Shown here: positions 4,094 through 49,661 of the stretch, one piece after another | How the letters are laid out: every line of letters begins with the position of its first letter | Numbering within the stretch: the stretch's first letter is position 1 | Origin: Bacteroidia bacterium | GTDB lineage: Bacteria > Bacteroidota > Bacteroidia > B-17B0 > Aurantibacillaceae | Assembly (NCBI GenBank): GCA_016787785.1 | Contig: JAEUTO010000005.1 | Span: 434,001-498,000, forward strand | Direction: 5' to 3' | DNA: 64,000 nt | Made by a program: the position numbers and the translations under genes | The notes under the pieces: model-generated | Told to the model about the DNA's origin: nothing | Databases searched by the model: none | The model's input: the letters and a program-made list of their open reading frames with translations, nothing else

Positions 4094-4128
4094 TCAGTTA
4101 CGACTAAAATCTAATAACTAGTATCTAA
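4094..4128. repeat. heptad (7-bp) periodic spacer, engB / 4128 gene
   Basis: The whole spacer divides into five 7-mers in one phase: TCAGTTA, CGACTAA, AATCTAA, TAACTAG, TATCTAA. The last A is the first base of the next ATG. CTAA or CTAG recurs at the same position in four of the five units. The same core (GACTAAC) forms the array between ftsA and ftsZ. The spacer is part of a family described under findings; no function is known to me. Confidence 0.6.
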
Positions 4129-6201: not shown

Positions 6202-6205
6202 AATA

Positions 6206-6296
6206 TTTCGGGTTTCGGGTTTCTTGTTTTAGAAACAAGGAAACAGAAATAAAATAGAAACTAAACACGAAATAAGAAACACAGAATAATAAACAT
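6206..6296. repeat. heptad (7-bp) periodic spacer between rsmH and ftsL
   Basis: From 6206 the spacer reads in one phase of 13 units: TTTCGGG, TTTCGGG, TTTCTTG, TTTTAGA, AACAAGG, AAACAGA, AATAAAA, TAGAAAC, TAAACAC, GAAATAA, GAAACAC, AGAATAA, TAAACAT. The first units are TTTC-type and the later ones GAAA-type, so the halves are roughly complementary. The turn (TTTCTTGTTTTAGAAACAAGGAAA region) can form a stem. Apart from a few bases at either end, this is the entire intergenic sequence. It is the longest array in the window. Confidence 0.6.
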
Positions 6297-6300
6297 AGTA

Positions 6301-13132: not shown

Positions 13133-14287
13133 ATGAAACTGTTTAACTATTTAAAAGGCGATAAGGTTATTTGGGCAATAATGTTCTTATTGTCGCTGCT
13201 ATCTGTTTTGGTAGTTTACAGTGCGGTTGTAACACTTGCGCATAAATTTAAGCAAGGCAATACCGAATATTATTTATTTAAACATTTTGTAATTATTGCG
13301 TTGGGGTTTGGAATTGCTTACCTGTTCCATAAAATTAAATACACTATATTTTCAAAAGTGGCACAAATTGGATTTATTTTATCTGTTCCGCTTTTAATTT
13401 ACACATTATTGAAAGGTGTTAGTGCCGGTGAAGCTTCGCGTTGGTTAGAAGTTCCCGGTCTTGGTTTAACCTTTCAATCATCAGATATTGCAAAATTAAT
13501 GTTGTTGATCTATGTGGCGCGCGTTTTAACGCTTAAAGCAAAAGAGCTGGTAGATTTTAAATCTGTTTTAAAATATCTCTTGCTTCCAATAGGTTTAATT
13601 TGCGTTTTAATATTACCGGCTAATTTTTCTACGGCAGCTTTATTATTTTTTAATTGTTTGATCTTAATGTTTGTTGGTGGCATTAACATTAAAATAATTT
13701 TAAAGATCTTAGGTATCTGTACTTTAGCGGCAGCCTTACTTTTTACCTGGATCATGTTATTGCCGGAGAGTATTCCCGGTGGCCGTGGTACAACTTGGAA
13801 AACAAGGATAGAAAGTTTTTCAAGTGGTGATACAAAAAGTAATTACCAAAGCGAGCAGGCAAAAATTGCCATTGCTACCGGGGGTGTTATTGGAAAGGGT
13901 CCGGGCAACAGTACGCAGCGTGCATTTTTGCCGCAGGCCTCTTCCGATTTTATTTATGCAATTATTATTGAAGAATATGGACTCTTGACCGGTTTTGGTT
14001 TATTGTTCCTATATATGATACTCTTATATAGAGGTATAAAAATTTTACGTGATAATGATAAACCTTTTGGCTCTTTTGTTGCAGTTGGACTTTCTTTCAG
14101 CCTGGTATTCCAGGCATTGGTAAATATGGCAGTTGCGGTAAATTTATTTCCTGTAACCGGACAGCCTTTACCACTTATAAGTATGGGGGGAACTTCTATT
14201 TGGTTTACCATGATAGCGATAGGAATAATTTTAAGCGTAAGCAGAAGTGTAGAAGACAAATCTGAAGAAAAACTTGAAACAGCTTAA
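13133..14287 (+). CDS. ftsW: septal peptidoglycan glycosyltransferase FtsW
   Basis: The 384-residue SEDS-family membrane protein polymerises lipid II at the septum together with FtsI. About ten membrane segments are evident. Family motifs include GEASRWLEVPGLGLTFQSSD, the periplasmic loop with YQSEQAKIAIATGG and GKGPGNSTQRAFLPQASSDF, and the C-terminal FPVTGQPLPLISMGGTS. The start is ATG 13133, with MKLFNYLKGDKVIWA. Its last 14 bp overlap murG. RodA is a paralogue, but the position inside the dcw cluster supports FtsW. Confidence 0.93.
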   Translation: MKLFNYLKGDKVIWAIMFLLSLLSVLVVYSAVVTLAHKFKQGNTEYYLFKHFVIIALGFGIAYLFHKIKYTIFSKVAQIGFILSVPLLIYTLLKGVSAGEASRWLEVPGLGLTFQSSDIAKLMLLIYVARVLTLKAKELVDFKSVLKYLLLPIGLICVLILPANFSTAALLFFNCLILMFVGGINIKIILKILGICTLAAALLFTWIMLLPESIPGGRGTTWKTRIESFSSGDTKSNYQSEQAKIAIATGGVIGKGPGNSTQRAFLPQASSDFIYAIIIEEYGLLTGFGLLFLYMILLYRGIKILRDNDKPFGSFVAVGLSFSLVFQALVNMAVAVNLFPVTGQPLPLISMGGTSIWFTMIAIGIILSVSRSVEDKSEEKLETA

Positions 14288-15383
14288 GGTCATATTAAGT
14301 GGGGGCGGCACGGGTGGCCACATTTTTCCGGCAGTTGCCATTGCCAATGAAATTAAAAGACTAGCTCCAACCGCCGAAATTTTATTTGTAGGCGCCATAG
14401 GCAAAATGGAAATGGAAAAAGTTCCGGCCTCGGGTTACAAGATCATTGGCGTTCCAATAGCAGGTTTGCAAAGAAAATTTACACTTTCTAATCTCAAATT
14501 ACCATTTCTGATCATTAAAAGTTTATTAAAGACCAGAAAAATCCTAAATGATTTTAAACCTGATGTTGTTGTGGGTACCGGCGGTTATGCCAGCGGCCCA
14601 CTATTAAGAGCGGCTACAGGTAAGGGGATTCCGGCTTTGATACAAGAGCAAAATTCTTATGCAGGCATTACCAATAAAATTCTTTCAAAAAAAGTAAATA
14701 AGATCTGTGTGGCTTACGAAGGCATGGAAAAATTCTTCCCAAAAGAAAAAATAATGCTAACAGGGAATCCTGTAAGACAGGATATTGTAAACATTCTTGA
14801 AAAAAGGAGCGAGGCTTTTTCGTTCTTTAAATTAGATCCCAATAAAAGAACAGTTTTAGTGGTGGGTGGAAGTTTAGGTGCGAAAGCCATTAACGAAGCA
14901 ATTGGTTCCGGATTACAAAAATTTGCAGACAATGCTATTCAACTGGTTTGGCAAACAGGTAAAATTTATTTTGAAACTGCAAAACAGCAAACAAAAGGTT
15001 TTGAAAATAAAAATATTGCAGCAGTGGATTTTATTTCGCGTATGGACCTTGCTTATGCTTTTGCCGATGTGGTTATTTCCAGAGCAGGGGCAGGAGCGAT
15101 CTCAGAATTGTGTATCGTGCAAAAACCCTGCCTTTTAGTACCATTACCAACGGCCGCGGAAGATCATCAAACAAAAAACGCTATGGCTTTGGTAAATAAG
15201 AACGCAGCCATTTTGGTTAAAGATACAGAAGCAACACAAGTTTTGGTTGACCGTGCAATTCAATTAGTAAATAATACGGTAGAACAGGAAACTTTAAAAA
15301 CAAATATGAAACAACTGGCTTTTTTAAATTCTGCCAATATAATTGCAAAAGAAGTTTTGAAGTTGGCAAACTATAAAGAATGA
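14274..15383 (+). CDS. murG: UDP-GlcNAc--lipid I N-acetylglucosaminyltransferase MurG
   Basis: The 369-residue GT28 enzyme converts lipid I to lipid II on the inner face of the membrane. Signatures are ILSGGGTGGHIFPAVA at the N-terminus, GTGGYASGPLL, IQEQNSYAG, VVGGSLGAKAINEA and the donor-binding SRAGAGAISELC with PLPTAAEDHQTKNA. The start is TTG at 14274 within the end of ftsW (14-bp overlap); no other start precedes the glycine-rich loop. The TGA stop is the first triplet of a 7-bp-periodic array that fills the gap to murC. Confidence 0.96.
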   Translation: MKQLKVILSGGGTGGHIFPAVAIANEIKRLAPTAEILFVGAIGKMEMEKVPASGYKIIGVPIAGLQRKFTLSNLKLPFLIIKSLLKTRKILNDFKPDVVVGTGGYASGPLLRAATGKGIPALIQEQNSYAGITNKILSKKVNKICVAYEGMEKFFPKEKIMLTGNPVRQDIVNILEKRSEAFSFFKLDPNKRTVLVVGGSLGAKAINEAIGSGLQKFADNAIQLVWQTGKIYFETAKQQTKGFENKNIAAVDFISRMDLAYAFADVVISRAGAGAISELCIVQKPCLLVPLPTAAEDHQTKNAMALVNKNAAILVKDTEATQVLVDRAIQLVNNTVEQETLKTNMKQLAFLNSANIIAKEVLKLANYKE

Positions 15384-15457
15384 CTCATGATAAATGATTT
15401 ATGATTAAAGATCGATTGTGAATCTTTAATCCTTTATCATTGATATTTAATCGAAAA
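15381..15457. repeat. palindromic heptad (7-bp) array between murG and murC
   Basis: Eleven units run in one phase from the murG stop codon: TGACTCA, TGATAAA, TGATTTA, TGATTAA, AGATCGA, TTGTGAA, TCTTTAA, TCCTTTA, TCATTGA, TATTTAA, TCGAAAA. The first units carry TGA at positions 1-3 and the later ones carry the complementary TCA/TC-type. At the centre GATTAAAGAT (15403-15412) pairs perfectly with ATCTTTAATC (15422-15431) across a 9-nt loop. The murC ATG follows 2 bp after the array. No run of Ts follows, so it is not a standard terminator. Confidence 0.65.
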
Positions 15458-15459
15458 GG

Positions 15460-16842
15460 ATGAACATATTAAACTATAAACTCTATTATTTTCTAGGTGT
15501 CGGTGGCATTGGTATGAGTGCCCTGGCGCGTTTTTTTAACCACTACAAAAAAACGGTTATTGGTTATGATAAAACAGCTACCAACTTAACCAACCAAATG
15601 CAAAATGAAGGCATACAATGTTATTTTGATGATAATGTTGAAAGACTCAAAACCATTTTAGCTTCTTATTCAAAAGATGAAGTTTTAATTGTGTACACAC
15701 CCGCCGTTCCAAAAGAGCATGCAGAGTATGTATATCTTTTAGAGAATAATTATACTATCTTAAAACGCTCAGTTGTTCTGGGTGAGATCACCAAACAATT
15801 TAAAACAATAGCTATTGCTGGCACGCATGGCAAAACAACCACTACAACCCTGGTTACTCACCTTTTAAAAAGTGCCGGCATCAATTGTTTCTCGTTTATG
15901 GGAGGCATTTCAAAAAACTATAACACTAATTTACTACTTGGCGACGTTAACGACAAAGATGCTTACGTTGTGGTGGAGGCCGATGAATACGACCGCTCTT
16001 TTTTAACCCTGCACCCTCAAATAGCTGTTATTACGAGCGTTGATGCCGATCATTTAGATATTTACGGCAACGCCGAACATGTTAAAGAGGGTTATGCTTT
16101 ATTCGCCAAACAGGTTAAAAGTGACGGCATGTTGATTGTTAAAAAAAATGTTGATAACGATTTGACGCTGAGTAATAAACGCCTGATCTACTCATTAAAT
16201 TTAGATACGGAATATTGTGCCGAATCTATTGTTATGGCCAACGCACAATTTTCTTATAACATTAAAAGTCCTGTTGAGGCTATAAGTGGCGTAACGCTTG
16301 GTTTACCGGGCATACACAACATTGAGAATTCGATTGCAGCAGTTGCAATTGCGCAGCAAATTGGGATAAAAGGTGATGTTATAAAAAATGCTTTACGTTC
16401 TTTTAGTGGTGTAAAACGCCGTTTTGATTACAGGGTTAAAACCGAAAAAGTAGTATATATTGATGATTATGCTCATCATCCGGAAGAATTGAAGGCTACT
16501 ATTGGTTCGGTTAGGAAATTATACCCTGCAAAAAAAATAACCGGTATTTTTCAACCGCATTTGTTTAGTCGCACACGTGATTTTATTGATGATTTTGCGG
16601 CAAGTTTGGATCTTTTGGATGAATGCATTCTTTTGGAGATCTACCCGGCCCGCGAAAAACCGATCGAAGGTGTTACTTCAACCTGGTTACTGAGTAAAAT
16701 GAAACTGAAAGACAAAAAACTGATGACCAAACAACAAGTGCTGGATAAAATGAAAGAAACGTTACCCGAGGTTCTGATCACTATGGGAGCAGGAGATGTT
16801 GATTCGCTAATAGAGCCGCTTGAAAAAATATTAAATACATAA
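15460..16842 (+). CDS. murC: UDP-N-acetylmuramate--L-alanine ligase MurC
   Basis: The 460-residue Mur ligase adds L-alanine to UDP-MurNAc, the first peptide step. The N-terminal Rossmann domain begins YFLGVGGIGMSALARFF. The ATP loop is IAGTHGKTTTTTLV, followed by VEADEYDRSFL, VDADHLDIYG, GVKRRFDYR and DDYAHHPEELKATI, all MurC hallmarks. The start ATG 15460 lies 2 bp after the heptad array. The stop TAA at 16840-16842 is followed 2 bp later by the TTG start of ftsQ. A ddl gene, often found between murC and ftsQ elsewhere, is absent. Confidence 0.97.
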   Translation: MNILNYKLYYFLGVGGIGMSALARFFNHYKKTVIGYDKTATNLTNQMQNEGIQCYFDDNVERLKTILASYSKDEVLIVYTPAVPKEHAEYVYLLENNYTILKRSVVLGEITKQFKTIAIAGTHGKTTTTTLVTHLLKSAGINCFSFMGGISKNYNTNLLLGDVNDKDAYVVVEADEYDRSFLTLHPQIAVITSVDADHLDIYGNAEHVKEGYALFAKQVKSDGMLIVKKNVDNDLTLSNKRLIYSLNLDTEYCAESIVMANAQFSYNIKSPVEAISGVTLGLPGIHNIENSIAAVAIAQQIGIKGDVIKNALRSFSGVKRRFDYRVKTEKVVYIDDYAHHPEELKATIGSVRKLYPAKKITGIFQPHLFSRTRDFIDDFAASLDLLDECILLEIYPAREKPIEGVTSTWLLSKMKLKDKKLMTKQQVLDKMKETLPEVLITMGAGDVDSLIEPLEKILNT

Positions 16843-19018: not shown

Positions 19019-19060
19019 GAGTAAAGACTAACAACTAACAACTATTGACTAACGACTTTA
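19019..19060. repeat. heptad (7-bp) array between ftsA and ftsZ
   Basis: Six units in one phase begin directly after the ftsA stop: GAGTAAA, GACTAAC, AACTAAC, AACTATT, GACTAAC, GACTTTA. The consensus GACTAAC has the same CTAA core as the engB spacer. It is also the reverse complement of the TTA/GTC text of the array inside leuS. About 28 bp of AT-rich sequence remain before the ftsZ ATG. Confidence 0.65.
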
Positions 19061-19088
19061 TAAATTAATAACCCTTAAAAAAATAACC

Positions 19089-20739: not shown

Positions 20740-21297
20740 TTATTTGGCAAAATTAATTTGTAAAACTGTTTCTTTATAAGCATCCAGCGCTTTTATTTCT
20801 TTCATGATCTTAGCTTCCCATTCCCGCTGTTTATCGCCATTCATAGAGCCATCTGTTTCTTCATCATAAAGGTCCTGGTATTTATCCATGGCTTTATCAT
20901 TTGCATCATATAACGTTTCTACTTTTGATTTAAGGTCTTCATAAGAAGTGAATTTAGTTTCTTTAATTTGTTTGCGGAGCTTACGCGCATATAACTCTAC
21001 AATGTCGAAATGTTTTTGCTCATGCGCTAACACTTGGTCGTTTATCCAGCTTGTTTTTTTCCAGGAGCTTTGGGTAAAAAATACGGCCTTAATTTCAACC
21101 GAATTCTTAGTTACTTCTTTCAAAATATCATAACTGGTAGAAGCGGCAGCAAAACGCTTTTCGGGTTTGCCTTTAAAATCATCCCAGGTTAAAGGGCGTT
21201 CTAATTTCCAGGAGATCTTTTCTTTCTCATCTTCGGGCTTAAATGAAAAGGAAAATAAAGAAGCAATAACTACTGCGAATATTATTTTAAAATTCAT
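20740..21297 (-). CDS. DUF922-type secreted protein, putative zinc metalloprotease
   Basis: The 185-residue protein has a signal peptide (about 1-20) and the DUF922 opening RPLTWDDFKGKP (34-45). It also carries HEQKH (H92-H96), which fits the HExxH zinc site, with the sequence HFDIVELYARKLRKQI continuing the helix. Family proteins are predicted secreted zinc-dependent proteases without a known substrate. It is convergent with ftsZ. A palindrome GTATCA...TGATAC lies immediately in front of the ATG. The third zinc ligand is not obvious, so activity is inferred. Confidence 0.72.
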   Translation of the reverse strand: MNFKIIFAVVIASLFSFSFKPEDEKEKISWKLERPLTWDDFKGKPEKRFAAASTSYDILKEVTKNSVEIKAVFFTQSSWKKTSWINDQVLAHEQKHFDIVELYARKLRKQIKETKFTSYEDLKSKVETLYDANDKAMDKYQDLYDEETDGSMNGDKQREWEAKIMKEIKALDAYKETVLQINFAK

Positions 21298-21317
21298 GTA
21301 TCAGTTTTTTTTGATAC
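21298..21317 (-). promoter_or_regulatory. palindrome abutting the start codon of the DUF922 gene
   Basis: GTATCA (21298-21303) and TGATAC (21312-21317) are exact reverse complements separated by 8 nt (GTTTTTTT). The inner edge touches the ATG (21295-21297). In mRNA this would put a short hairpin where a ribosome lands. It could equally be an operator. Confidence 0.4.
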
Positions 21318-21410
21318 AACAAGTTAAGAAAAAAAGATTGAATCTTATTTCTTATAACATTTTTTAAACTAATTCTTTGTTAAATAAACTGAGGAGAATT
21401 TTTCCTGCTC

Positions 21411-21632
21411 CTAGGCCGTGTCTCGTTCCAGCATTTGGTTGATGTGGCAGTGGCCGCTAATACTGCGATAAACTAAATAACCACCAATAAGGGATTTTAA
21501 CATCGAGGTAACCGGCTTATCCTTAGCGTTATTTATGCCCGAGATCAGAAATAAAGTCCCGGTAATTAATGATTGTGTGCGCTCTAAGTCGCTAACATTT
21601 ACGCTTGTATCTGATAAATTCAATTTTTCCAT
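21411..21632 (-). CDS. small membrane protein, DUF2892/YgaP-like
   Basis: The 73-residue protein contains two short hydrophobic stretches (ITGTLFLISGI, about 23-33, and MLKSLIGGYLVYRSISG, about 44-60) and ends in GHCHINQMLERDTA. The NVSDLERTQSLITG start and the YRSISGHC(H)IN end match the pattern of DUF2892 inner-membrane proteins (NxxxxER..., ...YRGxTGHCPxY). Function is unknown; some relatives carry rhodanese domains, absent here. A palindrome overlaps its start codon. The gene is flanked by low-coding sequence on both sides, so I assume a single-gene transcript. Confidence 0.6.
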   Translation of the reverse strand: MEKLNLSDTSVNVSDLERTQSLITGTLFLISGINNAKDKPVTSMLKSLIGGYLVYRSISGHCHINQMLERDTA

Positions 21633-21653
21633 GATCTTTTTTATTAAAGATCA
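21632..21653 (-). promoter_or_regulatory. palindrome overlapping the start of the DUF2892-like gene
   Basis: TGATCTTT (21632-21639) and AAAGATCA (21646-21653) are exact reverse complements around a 6-nt loop. The inner T is the first base of the start codon. The arrangement resembles the one at the next gene downstream (21298-21317), although the sequence differs. Confidence 0.4.
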
Positions 21654-21691
21654 CGCAAAAGTTATGCCTAATGAAATGGTTAAGATAAAAC

Positions 21692-21769
21692 GTCATTGCG
21701 GCCTCGAGCAGGAATCTCAGTACTCAACAGATCTTAAGTACTCAGATGCTGAATCAAGTTCGGCATGAC
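21692..21769. repeat. REP-like dispersed repeat element downstream of leuS
   Basis: The 78-bp stretch starts GTCATTGC and ends GCATGAC, near-perfect inverted ends. It contains GATGCTGAATCAAGTTCGGC and two direct copies of AGTACTCA (21719-21726 and 21738-21745). Its base composition is more GC-rich than the surroundings. Intergenic elements with GTCATTGCG at one end and a CTGAA...TTC(A/G)GCATGAC end are, as I recall, common in Bacteroidota genomes. No second copy is in this window, so the repeat status is inferred. Confidence 0.5.
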
Positions 21770-21784
21770 CAGTAGTTTATTTGA

Positions 21785-24700
21785 CTAAATCACAATATTT
21801 ACGATCTTTTTTGGCACTACAATTATCTTCTTCGGTGTTTTACCTTCAAGATATTTTTGTACTTCTTCTCTGCTCATTACTTCTTTTTCAATTTCTGCAG
21901 AAGTTAATGTTGCAGGAAGTTCAATGTTCAAACGCATTTTACCATTGAAAGAAATAGGATAAATAAAACTGTCGTCCACCAAATACTCTTCGTTATGCAT
22001 TGGGAAAGTAGCAAGGGCAATACTTCCGCTATGACCTAATTTTTCCCAAAGCTCTTCGGTAATGTGTGGCGCGTAAGGCGACAAACAAATTACCAATGGT
22101 TCTAAGATCGCACGCTTGTTACATTTTGCCTCTGTTAATTCATTCACGCAGATCATAAAATTACTCACCGAGGTATTAAAAGAAAAACGCTCAATATCTT
22201 CTGTAATTTTTTTAATGGTTTTGTGCAATGTTTTTAGTTCAGCTTTTGTTGGCGCTTCATCGCTCACATTAAAAACGCCCTCCCCCGTCGCTTGCGCGAC
22301 ACCCCCTCCGGAGGGGGACAAATAGAACAAGCGCCACAATTTTTTTAAGAAGCCCGCAACACCTGTGATGCCATTTGTATTCCATGGTTTACTTTGCTCT
22401 AACGGACCTAAGAACATTTCGTATAAACGTAAAGTATCTGCGCCAAATTTTTCGCCAATATCATCAGGAGAAACAACATTCCATTTTGATTTAGACATTT
22501 TTTCTACTTCATTAAAAGTAGTAAATTGAAAATCTGGAACATTCGTAATTTCTTTTCCCGCAAAATCAAAATATTTTCCATTGTAATAATAATTTTCATC
22601 AGATATAAAAACAGTTAATTTTGCTTCATTAATCCAATCAGTATATCTTTTAATATCAAGTTTGTTTTTCTCAACAAAATCTATCGGAACATTAGCGGAA
22701 TACAAAGAATGAAAAGTACTATTTATATAGTTCTTCATATTTGTATTGATTAAAATATCAGAATAATTTTTTGGCAATACAACATTTATATACTTATCAT
22801 CAATGATAAGAGAAGCAGGTTGCCCTAAATTTTCTCGATTTTCGCCGAATATGGTCGAAGGTTGATGAGTAGCTAATTTATACACTTTTTCAGAAGTCCC
22901 CTGTATCATCCCCTGGTTAATTAATTTCCGAGCAGGCTCATCAATATTAATATGGCCAAGGTCTTTTAAAAATTTTGTCCAGAAGCGTACGTATAGTAAA
23001 TGCCCGGTGGCATGTTCGCTGCCGCCAATGTATAGATCAACTTGTTTCCAGTAGTCTGTTAATTTTTTTGATGCAAATTCCGAACCGTTATGCGCGTCCA
23101 TATAACGTAAAAAATACCAGGACGAACCAGCCCAGCCGGGCATGGTGCTGTGCTCGTAATCATATTTTCCGTCTTTTTTCCAGGATGAGGATGCACGCGC
23201 CAAAGGAGGCTCACCATCTTCGGTTGGTAAATATTTATCTACTTCTGGCAATACTAAAGGCAATTCAGAATCTTTTAAAGCGTAAGGAATTCCATCTTTA
23301 TAATAAATAGGTATTGGTTCGCCCCAATAACGTTGTCTGCCAAATACAGCATCACGCAAACGGTAGTTTGTTTTTCCTTTGCCAATTTTTTTATTTTCAA
23401 TTTCTGCAATTGCTTTTTTAATAGCTGCTTTTACATCTAAGCCATTTAGAAAATCAGAGTTAATTAATTTCCCTTCTTTTTCGCCCCATGCTTCTTTATC
23501 AAAATCATGTTCTTTAGTTGGTTCAATAACCTGCGGTAATGCCAAACCAAAATGTTTTGCAAATTTATGGTCACGCTCATCGTGCGCAGGGACTGCCATT
23601 ACAGCGCCTGTACCATAACCCGCCAACACATAATCACCAACCCAAATAGGAATTTGTTTTCCTGTAAATGGATGTTCTACATAAGAGCCGGTAAACACAC
23701 CTGATATTTTTGTAACATCTGCTTGTCGTTCGCGCTCGCTACGATTTTTAGATTTTGTAACGTAATCTTCAACGGCTGTTTTATTTTCTGCTGTTGTTAA
23801 TGATGGAACTAGATCATGCTCCGGTGCTAATGTTACAAACGAAACACCAAATATGGTATCGGGACGTGTTGTGAATACTTCTATTTCATCTGTCGTTAGT
23901 CTTGAGTCGTTAGTCTTGAGTCCCGCATCTTGTATTTTAAATTTCAATGAAGTTCCTTCAGAACGTCCTATCCAATACCTCTGCGATTCTTTTAAACTTT
24001 CTGTCCAGTCTAAAGTATCCAAACTCTCCAACAAACGTTGTGCATAAGCAGTAATGCGCATGCTCCATTGTTTCATTAATTTTCTTTCTACCGGGTGACC
24101 GCCACGTTCACTCACACCATCTTTTACTTCATCATTGGCTAATACGGTTCCTAAAGCAGGACACCAATTTACATAAGCTTCGCCCAAATAAGCAATGCGG
24201 TAATGCATTAAGGCGTCTGACTTTTCTTTTTCAGAGAACGCTTTCCAGTCTGCCGCAGAAAATTGTTTTGTATCCTCATCGCAAACAGCATTTATTTTTG
24301 AATTACCATTTGCTTCAAATTCTTTTATTAAAGTAGAAATATCTTCCGCCTTATTTGAATTGTTATTGTACCAGGAATTAAATATTTGAATAAAGATCCA
24401 TTGCGTCCATTTATAATATTCCGGATCAGATGTTCTTACTTCACGGTCCCAATCGAAACTAAAACCGATCTTATCCATTTGTTCGCGGTAGCGGTTGATG
24501 TTTTGTTCGGTTGTAATTTTTGGATGTTGTCCTGTTTGTATCGCATACTGTTCTGCGGGCAAACCAAAACTATCATAGCCCATTGGATGCAATACATTAA
24601 AACCTTTGTGGCGTTTGTAACGTGCCATGATATCCGAAGCAATATAACCAAGCGGATGGCCAACATGCAAACCTGCACCCGAAGGATATGGAAACATATC

Positions 24701-35920: not shown

Positions 35921-35987
35921 ATTTGATAAAAAGAAGAATGATTTATGATAAAAGAATCATGTGTCATTTATCTTGTATCTTTTGTCA
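35918..35987. terminator. heptad (7-bp) inverted array at convergent SDR/lipB ends
   Basis: Between, and including, the two stop codons the text divides into units in one phase: TAAATTT, GATAAAA, AGAAGAA, TGATTTA, TGATAAA, AGAATCA, TGTGTCA, TTTATCT, TGTATCT, TTTGTCA. The two halves are roughly complementary; for example TTTGATAAAAAGA near 35922 faces TCTTTTGTCAAA near 35978. TGATTTA and TGATAAA occur also in the murG/murC array. Placed tail-to-tail, it could end both transcripts as a long A/U hairpin. Confidence 0.6.
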
Positions 35988-47067: not shown

Positions 47068-47990
47068 TGATAAAAAAGTGTTACATATTTTTATTTAGTT
47101 TAATTGCGGTTTGCGGTTTTAGTCAGCAATTGCCGCAGTACACGCAGTACATGTTAAACGAAATGGCTATTAACCCTGCGGTTGCTGGTAAAGATGATTT
47201 TGCTGATGTGCGTTCAAATAACCGTTACCAGTGGATAGGAATTACAGATGCGCCAAGAACATATATGCTAACGTTACATGGCCCCATAAAATCAAAGAAC
47301 ATGGGTATTGGTATGAATTTGTATACCGATATTGTTGGACCAACACGTAGAACAGGATTAAATTTTTCTTACGCTTACCATTTAAAATTAAAAGAAGACA
47401 TGTTCCTGTCGATGGGATTAAGTGCAGGTGTTTTGCAGTGGGGAATTGATGGAAGTAAATTAGTTTTACGTGATAGTGGTGATGAAAATTTATTAAGCAC
47501 GTATCAAACTACTTATGTACCCGATTTTGGAGCAGGAATTTATTTCCATAAAAAAGACAGGTTCTATGTTGGTTTAAGTTTACCGCAGTTATACCAAGCG
47601 CCAATTAAATTATATGATGGTGCAGGAAAAAATAGTAGGATTATAAATCATTTTAATTTAAATGCTGCTTATAAATTTGATCTTGGTGACGACTTTAAGA
47701 TCGAACCATCTTTCCTTGTAAAATATGCAATTCCTGCTCCGCCAAAAATGGATATTGGCGCACGGGTAATTTACCAGGAACAAATTTGGTTGGGTGGTGC
47801 TTACCGTCACAATGATGCCTTTACGGCTTTGGTAGGATATTTTTACAAGAATTATTTAATGATAGGTTATTCGTATGATTTTACAACAACTAACATTAAA
47901 AAGTATTCAACCGGTACGCATGAGATCATGTTAGGCATCCGCTTCTCAAAAAAACAATCAGCTACCTGGGAAGCGAATAAAGAAAAATAA
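47067..47990 (+). CDS. SprF/PorP family outer-membrane protein, partner of the giant adhesin
   Basis: The 307-residue protein has a signal peptide (about 1-19, ending GFSQ) and the PorP/SprF opening QQLPQYTQYMLNEMAINPAVAG, followed by NRYQWIGITDAPRTYMLTLH. The rest is beta-rich, with an aromatic C-terminal strand region (MLGIRFSKK). In Flavobacterium johnsoniae SprF is needed for surface exposure of SprB. Here the start codon overlaps the stop of the giant SprB-like gene by one base (TAATG), a strong sign of a dedicated pair. It converges with the gene at 48000 with only 9 bp between stops. Confidence 0.9.
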   Translation: MIKKCYIFLFSLIAVCGFSQQLPQYTQYMLNEMAINPAVAGKDDFADVRSNNRYQWIGITDAPRTYMLTLHGPIKSKNMGIGMNLYTDIVGPTRRTGLNFSYAYHLKLKEDMFLSMGLSAGVLQWGIDGSKLVLRDSGDENLLSTYQTTYVPDFGAGIYFHKKDRFYVGLSLPQLYQAPIKLYDGAGKNSRIINHFNLNAAYKFDLGDDFKIEPSFLVKYAIPAPPKMDIGARVIYQEQIWLGGAYRHNDAFTALVGYFYKNYLMIGYSYDFTTTNIKKYSTGTHEIMLGIRFSKKQSATWEANKEK

Positions 47991-47999
47991 TTTCCGCAT

Positions 48000-49661
48000 T
48001 TAAACCAGATCTTCTACAAACAGTTTCCTGAAATTAATTGAGTTGCAGAGTTCAATGTAATTGAATTCGAACTTTCCTTTTTCTAATACAAAATTCTTTA
48101 ATTTATTTTTGTCAGTTGAGGTTAAGCGAGATGTGTTAATGCAAAAAGCAATAAAAAAACTTAACTTGTTAACGCCAATTTTTTCAACCCTTGAAATTTT
48201 ACTTATTTCAATTCCAAGATCTGTTCTTAATTTTTGCAAGCACCACTTTTCTGCCGCAGACCGGTTGCCATTAAATTTTAGTTTAATTTGTTCTGTAATA
48301 AATTCACTAATAACGCTAGGGTTTATTGGTTGCGCTTCATTATTAAAGTTAGCTGCAAGGTTTGAATTTGTGAAACGTTTTAAGGTTTCGATAGATGTTC
48401 GGTAACCTTTTGTAGTTTTAATTTTTTCCGCTTCTTCGCTTGCCAGTTTTTTAAGATCATTATCCACCGGTCTGAAACCAAATCGGTAATAGAACCAAAA
48501 GGCGCCCGATTGTAAACCTTCCGGATTATTTTTTCCAAACTGGTAGGGCTCCACTTCAAAATAATTTGCACCAAAACTTTGTTTATAGCTGCGTAATAAT
48601 TGACAAAAAACAAAAGCAGATTCGCCACCCCTGAAACTCTCAAAGATATTTATGCCAAGTAGCGAACGGTTGCCAAATAACCAACCACCGCCATATGCCA
48701 TAGGAAAACCATTTTTAAACATCATAAAACCAATGTAAGACTCAAGTGGCAAACGTCTTTCAGGAAGTATGCTAAATAAAGCAATCGATAATCCGTGTTC
48801 CAGTTCGTAAAACAATAAACCATCTGCGTTGCAATACACAATAGGCTCTGTTTCGCGGTTCAATAAAAATAAGGCCACCCGTGCTTTTTCAATAATGAGG
48901 TTTTTATCCGCGTTAGATAATTTTTTGGGTGCAGGTAGTTTCTTATTTATGATCTCTTTTTCATCAAAACGTTTTAGTAAACCTTTTGTATGGTAATAAT
49001 TTTTGTGAAACGAAAAATTTCCAAAACCTTTTGAAAGTGTTTTGTTGGTTGGAATAACTGAAATGTAAACTTTTAACGATTCAAATAATTGGTCTTTAAT
49101 AAGGTCGGAAGCATCAATCCTTTCAAAATGATTGATCAGCCAAACCAAAAGATCTTTTTTGTTTTTTGAACCTACGGCTTGCTCTAACCATTTTATGGGA
49201 TTTAATTTTTCTGAAAAAGCAAATTCAAATTCCATTTCCGATAAAGCATGGCGTAAAATTTCTTTTGGATGAATACCGGTTTCATCAAAAGAATGTAAGG
49301 CAACCTGGTTAGGATATGTTTTTAATAACCATTGTATCAATGTAAAACTGTTGGCCGCTTGCGTTTGCGTATACGCAATGCCGGTTCTTTCGAGTTGGTC
49401 TTTTAAATGTGCGGGTGATTTTTTAACAGTTTCCGCTAAACGGTCCATCTCTTTTTGGACGATCAAAAGCAACTCTTCGTTTTCGGGATATCCCATTAAA
49501 AAGATCAAACAATCATGATATTGCTCTATTATTTTTTTTGAGTTTAATTTAATGTTCGCGCATTCATTTAAAAGGGCTTTTTTTTGCAAAGCAGAGCTTT
49601 CATTAAAGACCGCTGCAATTTCTTTTAAATGGGCAATGGTTATATTTTTTGATTTGATCAA
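48000..49661 (-). CDS. uncharacterised protein with GNAT-like C-terminal domain
   Basis: The 553-residue protein has no signal peptide or membrane segment. The N-terminal half (1-240) is helical. The second half contains the text MAYGGGWLFGNRSLLGINIF, SFRGGESAFVFCQLLRSYKQ, FEVEPYQFGKNNPEGLQSG and AFWFYYRFGFRPVD. I recall similar text in uncharacterised proteins of other phyla, where it looks like an acetyltransferase (GNAT) fold: a mid-sheet, a helix, and a YRLGF end. I do not recognise a specific function. It is a single gene between a convergent sprF-like gene and a divergent T9SS cargo gene. Confidence 0.7.
   Translation of the reverse strand: MIKSKNITIAHLKEIAAVFNESSALQKKALLNECANIKLNSKKIIEQYHDCLIFLMGYPENEELLLIVQKEMDRLAETVKKSPAHLKDQLERTGIAYTQTQAANSFTLIQWLLKTYPNQVALHSFDETGIHPKEILRHALSEMEFEFAFSEKLNPIKWLEQAVGSKNKKDLLVWLINHFERIDASDLIKDQLFESLKVYISVIPTNKTLSKGFGNFSFHKNYYHTKGLLKRFDEKEIINKKLPAPKKLSNADKNLIIEKARVALFLLNRETEPIVYCNADGLLFYELEHGLSIALFSILPERRLPLESYIGFMMFKNGFPMAYGGGWLFGNRSLLGINIFESFRGGESAFVFCQLLRSYKQSFGANYFEVEPYQFGKNNPEGLQSGAFWFYYRFGFRPVDNDLKKLASEEAEKIKTTKGYRTSIETLKRFTNSNLAANFNNEAQPINPSVISEFITEQIKLKFNGNRSAAEKWCLQKLRTDLGIEISKISRVEKIGVNKLSFFIAFCINTSRLTSTDKNKLKNFVLEKGKFEFNYIELCNSINFRKLFVEDLV

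Follow-up and report, generated by a model that had tools for sequence, protein, structure and literature searches.

Convergent heptad arrays in the murG-murC gap and at other gene borders of a Bacteroidota genome

The gap between murG and murC in the DNA analysed here (a stretch of 64,000 nucleotides, referred to as the window) is filled by two facing arms of 7-bp units. This array is not unique but belongs to a dispersed family, whose arms of about five GAYNNAN heptads face each other, are biased towards gene edges, are complementary to each other no further than their shared consensus, and have retained the G, A, and Y of the core together with the A at position 6. We favour, tentatively and at a little under an even chance, the reading of the convergent heptad arrays as a DNA-level recognition array, the phased core of which would be read in double-stranded DNA.

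Results

Anatomy of the murG-murC array

The window belongs to a 4.6-Mb genome of the Bacteroidota (G000), and its MurC is 93% identical to that of a metagenome bin labelled 'Bacteroidetes bacterium' and approximately 52% identical to that of Mucilaginibacter. The array lies in the cluster mraY-murD-ftsW-murG-murC-ftsQ-ftsA-ftsZ, for which the gene names were taken from gene order and translated sequences. The features of the locus, in window coordinates, are as follows.

14274..15383, plus strand: murG, assigned from its ORF and gene order, with orthologues in 40 genomes
15382..15412, plus strand: left arm, with five GAY cores at an exact pitch of 7 bp (GACTCAT GATAAAT GATTTAT GATTAAA GAT)
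15413..15421, no strand: centre between the arms, 9 nt
15422..15452, minus strand: right arm, in which the unit of the left arm is read from the opposite strand (RTC cores)
15460..16842, plus strand: murC

The first GAY of the left arm shares bases with the TGA stop codon of murG (15381-15383), and the gap (15381-15459) ends at the murC ATG at 15460. The division of 15381-15457 into eleven 7-mers, on which the original prediction was built, was confirmed (TGACTCA, TGATAAA, TGATTTA, TGATTAA, AGATCGA, TTGTGAA, TCTTTAA, TCCTTTA, TCATTGA, TATTTAA, and TCGAAAA). Lag-7 identity across the gap was 0.583, compared with 0.306 for dinucleotide-shuffled sequence (z = 5.1; none of 2000 shuffles reached the value), and lags 14 and 21 were raised too, while neighbouring lags were not. 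The heptads had been described as running without a slip, which holds inside each arm but not for the whole, since there are two separate arms and not one continuous phase: GAY cores start at 15382, 15389, 15396, 15403, and 15410 in the left arm, and RTC cores start at 15422, 15429, 15436, and 15450 in the right arm, where the core at 15443 is broken. Over 14 copies, the inter-arm distance ranged from 3 to 34 nt with no fixed number of heptads, so the phase belongs to each arm rather than to the whole element. By eye, centres with a length of 6 modulo 7 seemed over-represented, but this was dropped because few independent loci contributed to it. The mirrored orientation of heptad arms within an operon gap, also claimed originally, is supported by the sequence.

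The heptad family across the genome

A genome-wide excess at lag 7, the absence of which had been named as a refutation of the original prediction, was found: using a threshold of at least 20 of 28 matches, 7 intergenic gaps in 1.43 Mb of G000 were counted, against 0.7 expected, and the intergenic excess was confined mainly to lags 7, 14, and 21. Five GAY cores at pitch 7 formed 15 clusters in 1.8 Mb; the other pitches from 4 to 14 gave 0 or 1, except for pitch 6, whose four clusters are attributed to coding sequence. In the whole genome, the 5-unit GAYNNNN pattern was matched 40 times, compared with 6 times for the reversed control, and with A required at position 6 the counts were 34 and 0, respectively. 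The unit is GAYNNAN, with A at position 6 in 101 of the 104 units of paired arms even though position 6 was ignored in the search. Most arms carry five cores, a tally that is partly biased because some of the sample came from the 5-core search, and most strong arrays have one strong arm only. The sites are mostly gaps, with a few inside ORFs such as leuS. Apart from the murG-murC array, the following sites were located in the window.

19019..19072, plus strand: second slot, the ftsA-ftsZ gap, with GACTAAC-type heptads
35937..35986, minus strand: third slot, a convergent gap (at 35921), with a weak plus arm and a 5-unit minus arm
23892..23929, minus strand: heptad array in frame within leuS
6202..6300, no strand: related slot, GTTTC/GAAAC heptads with mirrored arms
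4094..4127, plus strand: related slot, degenerate GACTAAC-like heptads, species-variable

Facing polarity, gene-edge anchoring, and strand

Neighbouring arms in G000 face each other in all 14 cases (14:0), and in the distant genome G019, which uses a YAG core, the pairs likewise face each other (4 of 4; 4:0). The nearer gene edge lies behind the arm for 21 of 29 G000 arms (p = 0.024), the median distance being 9 bp behind and 42 bp ahead. The corresponding distances are 10 and 36 bp in the close relative G018 (11 of 15 arms, not significant alone) and 13 and 74 bp in G019 and G023 combined (15/20, p = 0.04). Because the distance ahead is approximately the length of a second arm, many of the single arms may be what is left of pairs after decay of one partner. 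With respect to transcription the strands are used evenly, with 9 sense and 8 antisense arms, and the context of the gaps (17 codirectional, 7 divergent, and 5 convergent) matches that of all gaps; the proposed role in mRNA processing or stability is disfavoured by this lack of preference for strand or gene context. In G019 (loci L316-L333), more than 800 matches of YAG-core heptads (CAGTTGG, CAGAGAG, and others) were also seen, often in near-perfect tandem.

Constraint on the core

Ten ungapped orthologous arms, most of them chosen since the array is present in both species, were compared between G000 and G018, which differ by 0.305 at third codon positions. Positions 4, 5, and 7 were changed in 35 of 120 cases (0.29), which equals the neutral level, compared with 2 of 40 at position 6, both towards A (Fisher p = 0.001). 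Position 6 was never searched and provides the only clean test; positions 1-2 (2/99 changed) and position 3 (8/49, all C-T) were used for finding the arrays and are biased by that search. Because the spacers change at the neutral rate while the core is retained, the GAY core and the position-6 A appear to be under selection. At L245 and L246, two loci found free of the both-species bias, the arrays were decayed or rewritten in one species.

The murG-murC slot among relatives

Within the clade of close species (support 100/100), the murG-murC gap is filled in 8 of 8 genomes, by GAY heptads in G000, G011, G036, and G047 and by a CACAAAG/CTTTGTG-type mirrored repeat in G018, G046, G035, and G006. 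The comparison of sisters that had been called for thus gave the heptad array in three species and a different repeat family in four. The two fill types need at least 2 changes on the eight-species tree; fill type is discordant with this tree and was therefore rejected as a straightforward marker of phylogeny. Among ten more distant relatives that possess both genes (MurG identity 71-79%; L169-L178), murG and murC overlap or abut in nine, and in the remaining one, G002, they are separated by an unrelated gap of 130 bp. The element had been suggested to uncouple neighbouring genes as a spacer, which is right for its effect on layout, in that the gap parts genes which overlap or abut in most distant relatives.

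Four other slots of the window (ftsA-ftsZ, 35921, 4094, and 6202) behave like the murG-murC slot, and promoter-like gaps are conserved in sequence. At ftsA-ftsZ, a GAY pair is found in G006 and G011 and GAAAC heptads in G035. The array of the third slot is conserved in G018 and present in G011; another repeat family occupies the slot in G006 and G035, and G047 has no gap there. The leuS site carries heptads in G000, G018, and G011, a similar peptide in G047, and unrelated residues in G035; at this site G006 has approximately 490 bp of additional DNA that includes another palindromic repeat.

Other repeat families

A second mirrored family with a pitch of about 9-10 bp (AACCACAAAG... / ...CTTTGTGGTT) was seen in the murG-murC gap at L161, L162, L164, and L166 and, within G000 itself, at C14:62285-62392 and C13:191593-191671. 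It sits between convergent and codirectional genes and swaps with GAY heptads at identical gaps. Two further mirrored families, one with a unit like AATTCGTGN (GCCACGAATT...AATTCGTGGC) and one with a unit like AATCTGTGN (GCCACAGATT...AATCTGCGGC), have inward-facing arms as in the heptads and were located in the gap orthologous to window positions 47990-48000 in G018, G006, and G047 and in the G018 gap orthologous to 21297-21785. At about positions 1230-1280 of L208 there is a dispersed repeat of approximately 40 bp (AAAGTTT/CTTTGAACTTT-like); several genomes of the genus contain scattered matches to it. A 58-bp segment of G000 (C10:403061-403118), near the L206 heptad array, matches its own reverse complement at 90%. 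A literature search for these other families by sequence string gave nothing relevant.

Discussion

As a recognition array, the element would consist of two arms of about five GAYNNAN units, each with its GAY strand running inwards from the gene edge next to it. The functional unit would be the phased core in double-stranded DNA rather than an RNA hairpin; the reader of the core might be a putative protein that takes one heptad at a time, or enzymes of replication or repair, and the element may serve, irrespective of strand, as a border or spacer that separates genes. It probably entered a junction that was ancestrally an ATGA overlap or nearly so, and with its entry the start of murC would no longer lie on the murG stop codon. 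Once formed, the slot could have its fill exchanged for another repeat family and still be occupied. Against this reading, sister species fill the slot with unrelated repeat families, so that the slot requires no particular core; the GAYNNAN family is also found inside leuS and other ORFs, and several arrays have decayed in one species.

The main rival, which we consider quite possible while leaning against it, is a neutral spread of simple sequence, in which 7-nt units would arise through polymerase slippage or through addition at DNA ends, would be tolerated only in gaps and loops, and would later degenerate. Slippage of 7-nt units has been proposed by others to account for the abundance of heptamers (PMC4679880, PMC4692102), and perfect tandem heptads of many cores (GACCAAG, GATGTAT, CAGAGAG) occur in the class, which is why slippage or end extension may create heptad arrays. 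The arms of one element may also differ in unit (at L320, CAGAGAG compared with CAGTCTT/CAGTTTT), an insertion has been tolerated in leuS, and no preference for context or strand is seen. Under this explanation the arms would face each other as a result of 5'-to-3' extension of the two 3' ends at a break or gap, each towards the other; such extension would account for the birth of facing arms but not for retention of the core. Neutral decay should hit the core as fast as the spacers, contrary to the 2/40 changes at position 6 compared with 35/120 in the spacers, and arm length is about five units rather than open-ended. Slippage as a driver at present, one of the roles originally listed, is contradicted by the units themselves: adjacent units in G000 are less alike than expected, not more (similarity 0.405, compared with 0.444 for shuffled order within the arm; p = 0.0065), and only 2 of 102 are identical.

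REP and REPIN sequences are dispersed intergenic elements with mirrored halves, a fixed palindrome, and a partner transposase. The G000 arrays resemble them in being dispersed, intergenic, and mirrored, but a fixed palindrome was not seen. A mobile miniature element of this REPIN/MITE-like kind, which a trans-acting transposase would copy into gaps, would agree with the dispersal, the length of approximately 65-90 bp, the mirrored ends, and the empty slot of relatives. Arms at different loci do match at 29 of 31 positions in 4 pairs, compared with 0.1 expected; these are, however, mostly low-complexity GATTTAW arms, a fixed end sequence is absent, and unit content differs at almost every locus, and we regard this origin as unlikely. 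The sole presence/absence difference of an array with flanking direct repeats (AATAAT) was found at C13:127k; its reading as an insertion with target duplication was downgraded in favour of a deletion in G018, since G046 retains an array there.

An RNA hairpin between murG and murC, with a role in attenuation or in the processing or stability of the mRNA, is less probable still. The 10-bp stem that had been singled out (15403-15412 with 15422-15431) is indeed perfect, and the repeat families that replace the array are also mirrored, but the stem is not special, as it arises because the commonest unit of paired arms, GATTAAA (14/104), occurs in both arms. Folding of the gap RNA was no better than that of shuffles (z = -0.96). 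Within the 14 copies, arms matched each other at free positions at 0.526, compared with 0.535 for swapped arms (p = 0.61), and swapping did not weaken the average folding (-17.6 kcal/mol native, -18.5 kcal/mol arm-swapped), with the murG-murC copy ranking last of 14. The idea that the array acts through its stem is therefore not supported, the arms being complementary no further than their shared consensus and most strong arrays having only one strong arm; arrays are, moreover, equally frequent in divergent gaps and in gaps overall. The hairpin looks like an incidental by-product. That the array is not a terminator was borne out by a terminator scan of the gap, in which a G+C-rich stem and a T run were absent, and an Rfam scan gave nothing at gathering score, with weak matches only.

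A phase-variation or slippage switch for murC expression, to which the position of a tandem array beside the start codon might point, is highly improbable given that the array is degenerate, that identical neighbours are rare (2/102), and that core-wall genes are unlikely targets.

Comparison with known systems

The combination of heptad phase and mirror symmetry had been thought undescribed, which is incorrect, as convergent pairs of GGGAATC heptads have been reported for Xanthomonas (Rehm et al. 2015, PMC4692102). In those arrays, positions 1-4 and 6 are conserved (GGGANTN) and mostly about four units are present; each genome has 70-75 plus/minus pairs in convergent orientation, most of them between genes, which lie close to the ORF behind (28 compared with 160 nt), occur in similar numbers on either strand, and recur, with variation in sequence, at the same gaps of two species (PMC4692102). 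G-quadruplexes were considered by Rehm et al. and no function was found (PMC4692102). The G000 arrays share the 7-bp unit with fixed and free positions including position 6, the convergent pairing of arms (14:0), and the proximity to the ORF behind (21/29). They differ in being more degenerate, in belonging to another phylum, and in having a GAYNNAN core without a G-tract, so that the G-quadruplex explanation is inapplicable to them; pairing and core constraint were tested in the present analysis. The element class is thus already known, and its layout has been reported with another motif in Xanthomonas, whereas the GAYNNAN core, the arm-swap test, the core-versus-spacer test, and the slot exchange are new as far as the literature searched shows. 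It is conceivable, if doubtful, that convergent edge-anchored heptad arrays form one cross-phylum element class with clade-specific cores (GAYNNAN, YAG, GGGANTN). In that case, a DNA-end process common to all of them would write the arrays inward from the two edges of a break or gap, and a heptad-reading protein that co-evolves with them would then maintain them.

The GGGGA(C/T)T arrays of Nostoc also place heptads in gaps, including one within the operon pecE-pecF (PMC4692102), as the G000 heptads do in an operon gap; unlike the G000 arrays, they are long and perfect and have few facing pairs. TAACTGA direct repeats are known from Beggiatoaceae, Cyanobacteria, and some Bacteroidetes (MacGregor 2015, PMC4679880), where they were proposed to be RNA-level sites and a single inverted pair was reported in the main genome (PMC4679880). 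These, too, are 7-nt arrays in gaps beside start codons and sometimes in ORFs, but they consist of one fixed unit that is mostly forward to the downstream gene; the TAACTGA unit is absent from the murG-murC gap, and the G000 arms are not forward-biased (9 sense, 8 antisense). In most of the genomes that are rich in repeats of longer units, no class is more abundant than heptanucleotides (Mrazek et al. 2007, as cited in PMC4679880). According to the same citation, such long simple sequence repeats are perfect tandem repeats for which slippage was proposed, unlike the G000 arrays, in which the hallmark of slippage-driven repeats, near-identical adjacent units, is absent (2/102 identical).

Records of heptanucleotide arrays in bacterial gaps go back to at least 2007 and came with no explanation. 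That the same geometry, with facing and edge-anchored arms and no strand preference, is found with a core unable to form G-quadruplexes, with arms unselected for pairing, and with a core conserved against neutral spacers weakens both the quadruplex and the hairpin explanations. The murG-murC slot illustrates that an essential operon junction can exchange its repeat fill between species, and it is now possible to test which agents read or write the phased 7-bp core found at gene borders.
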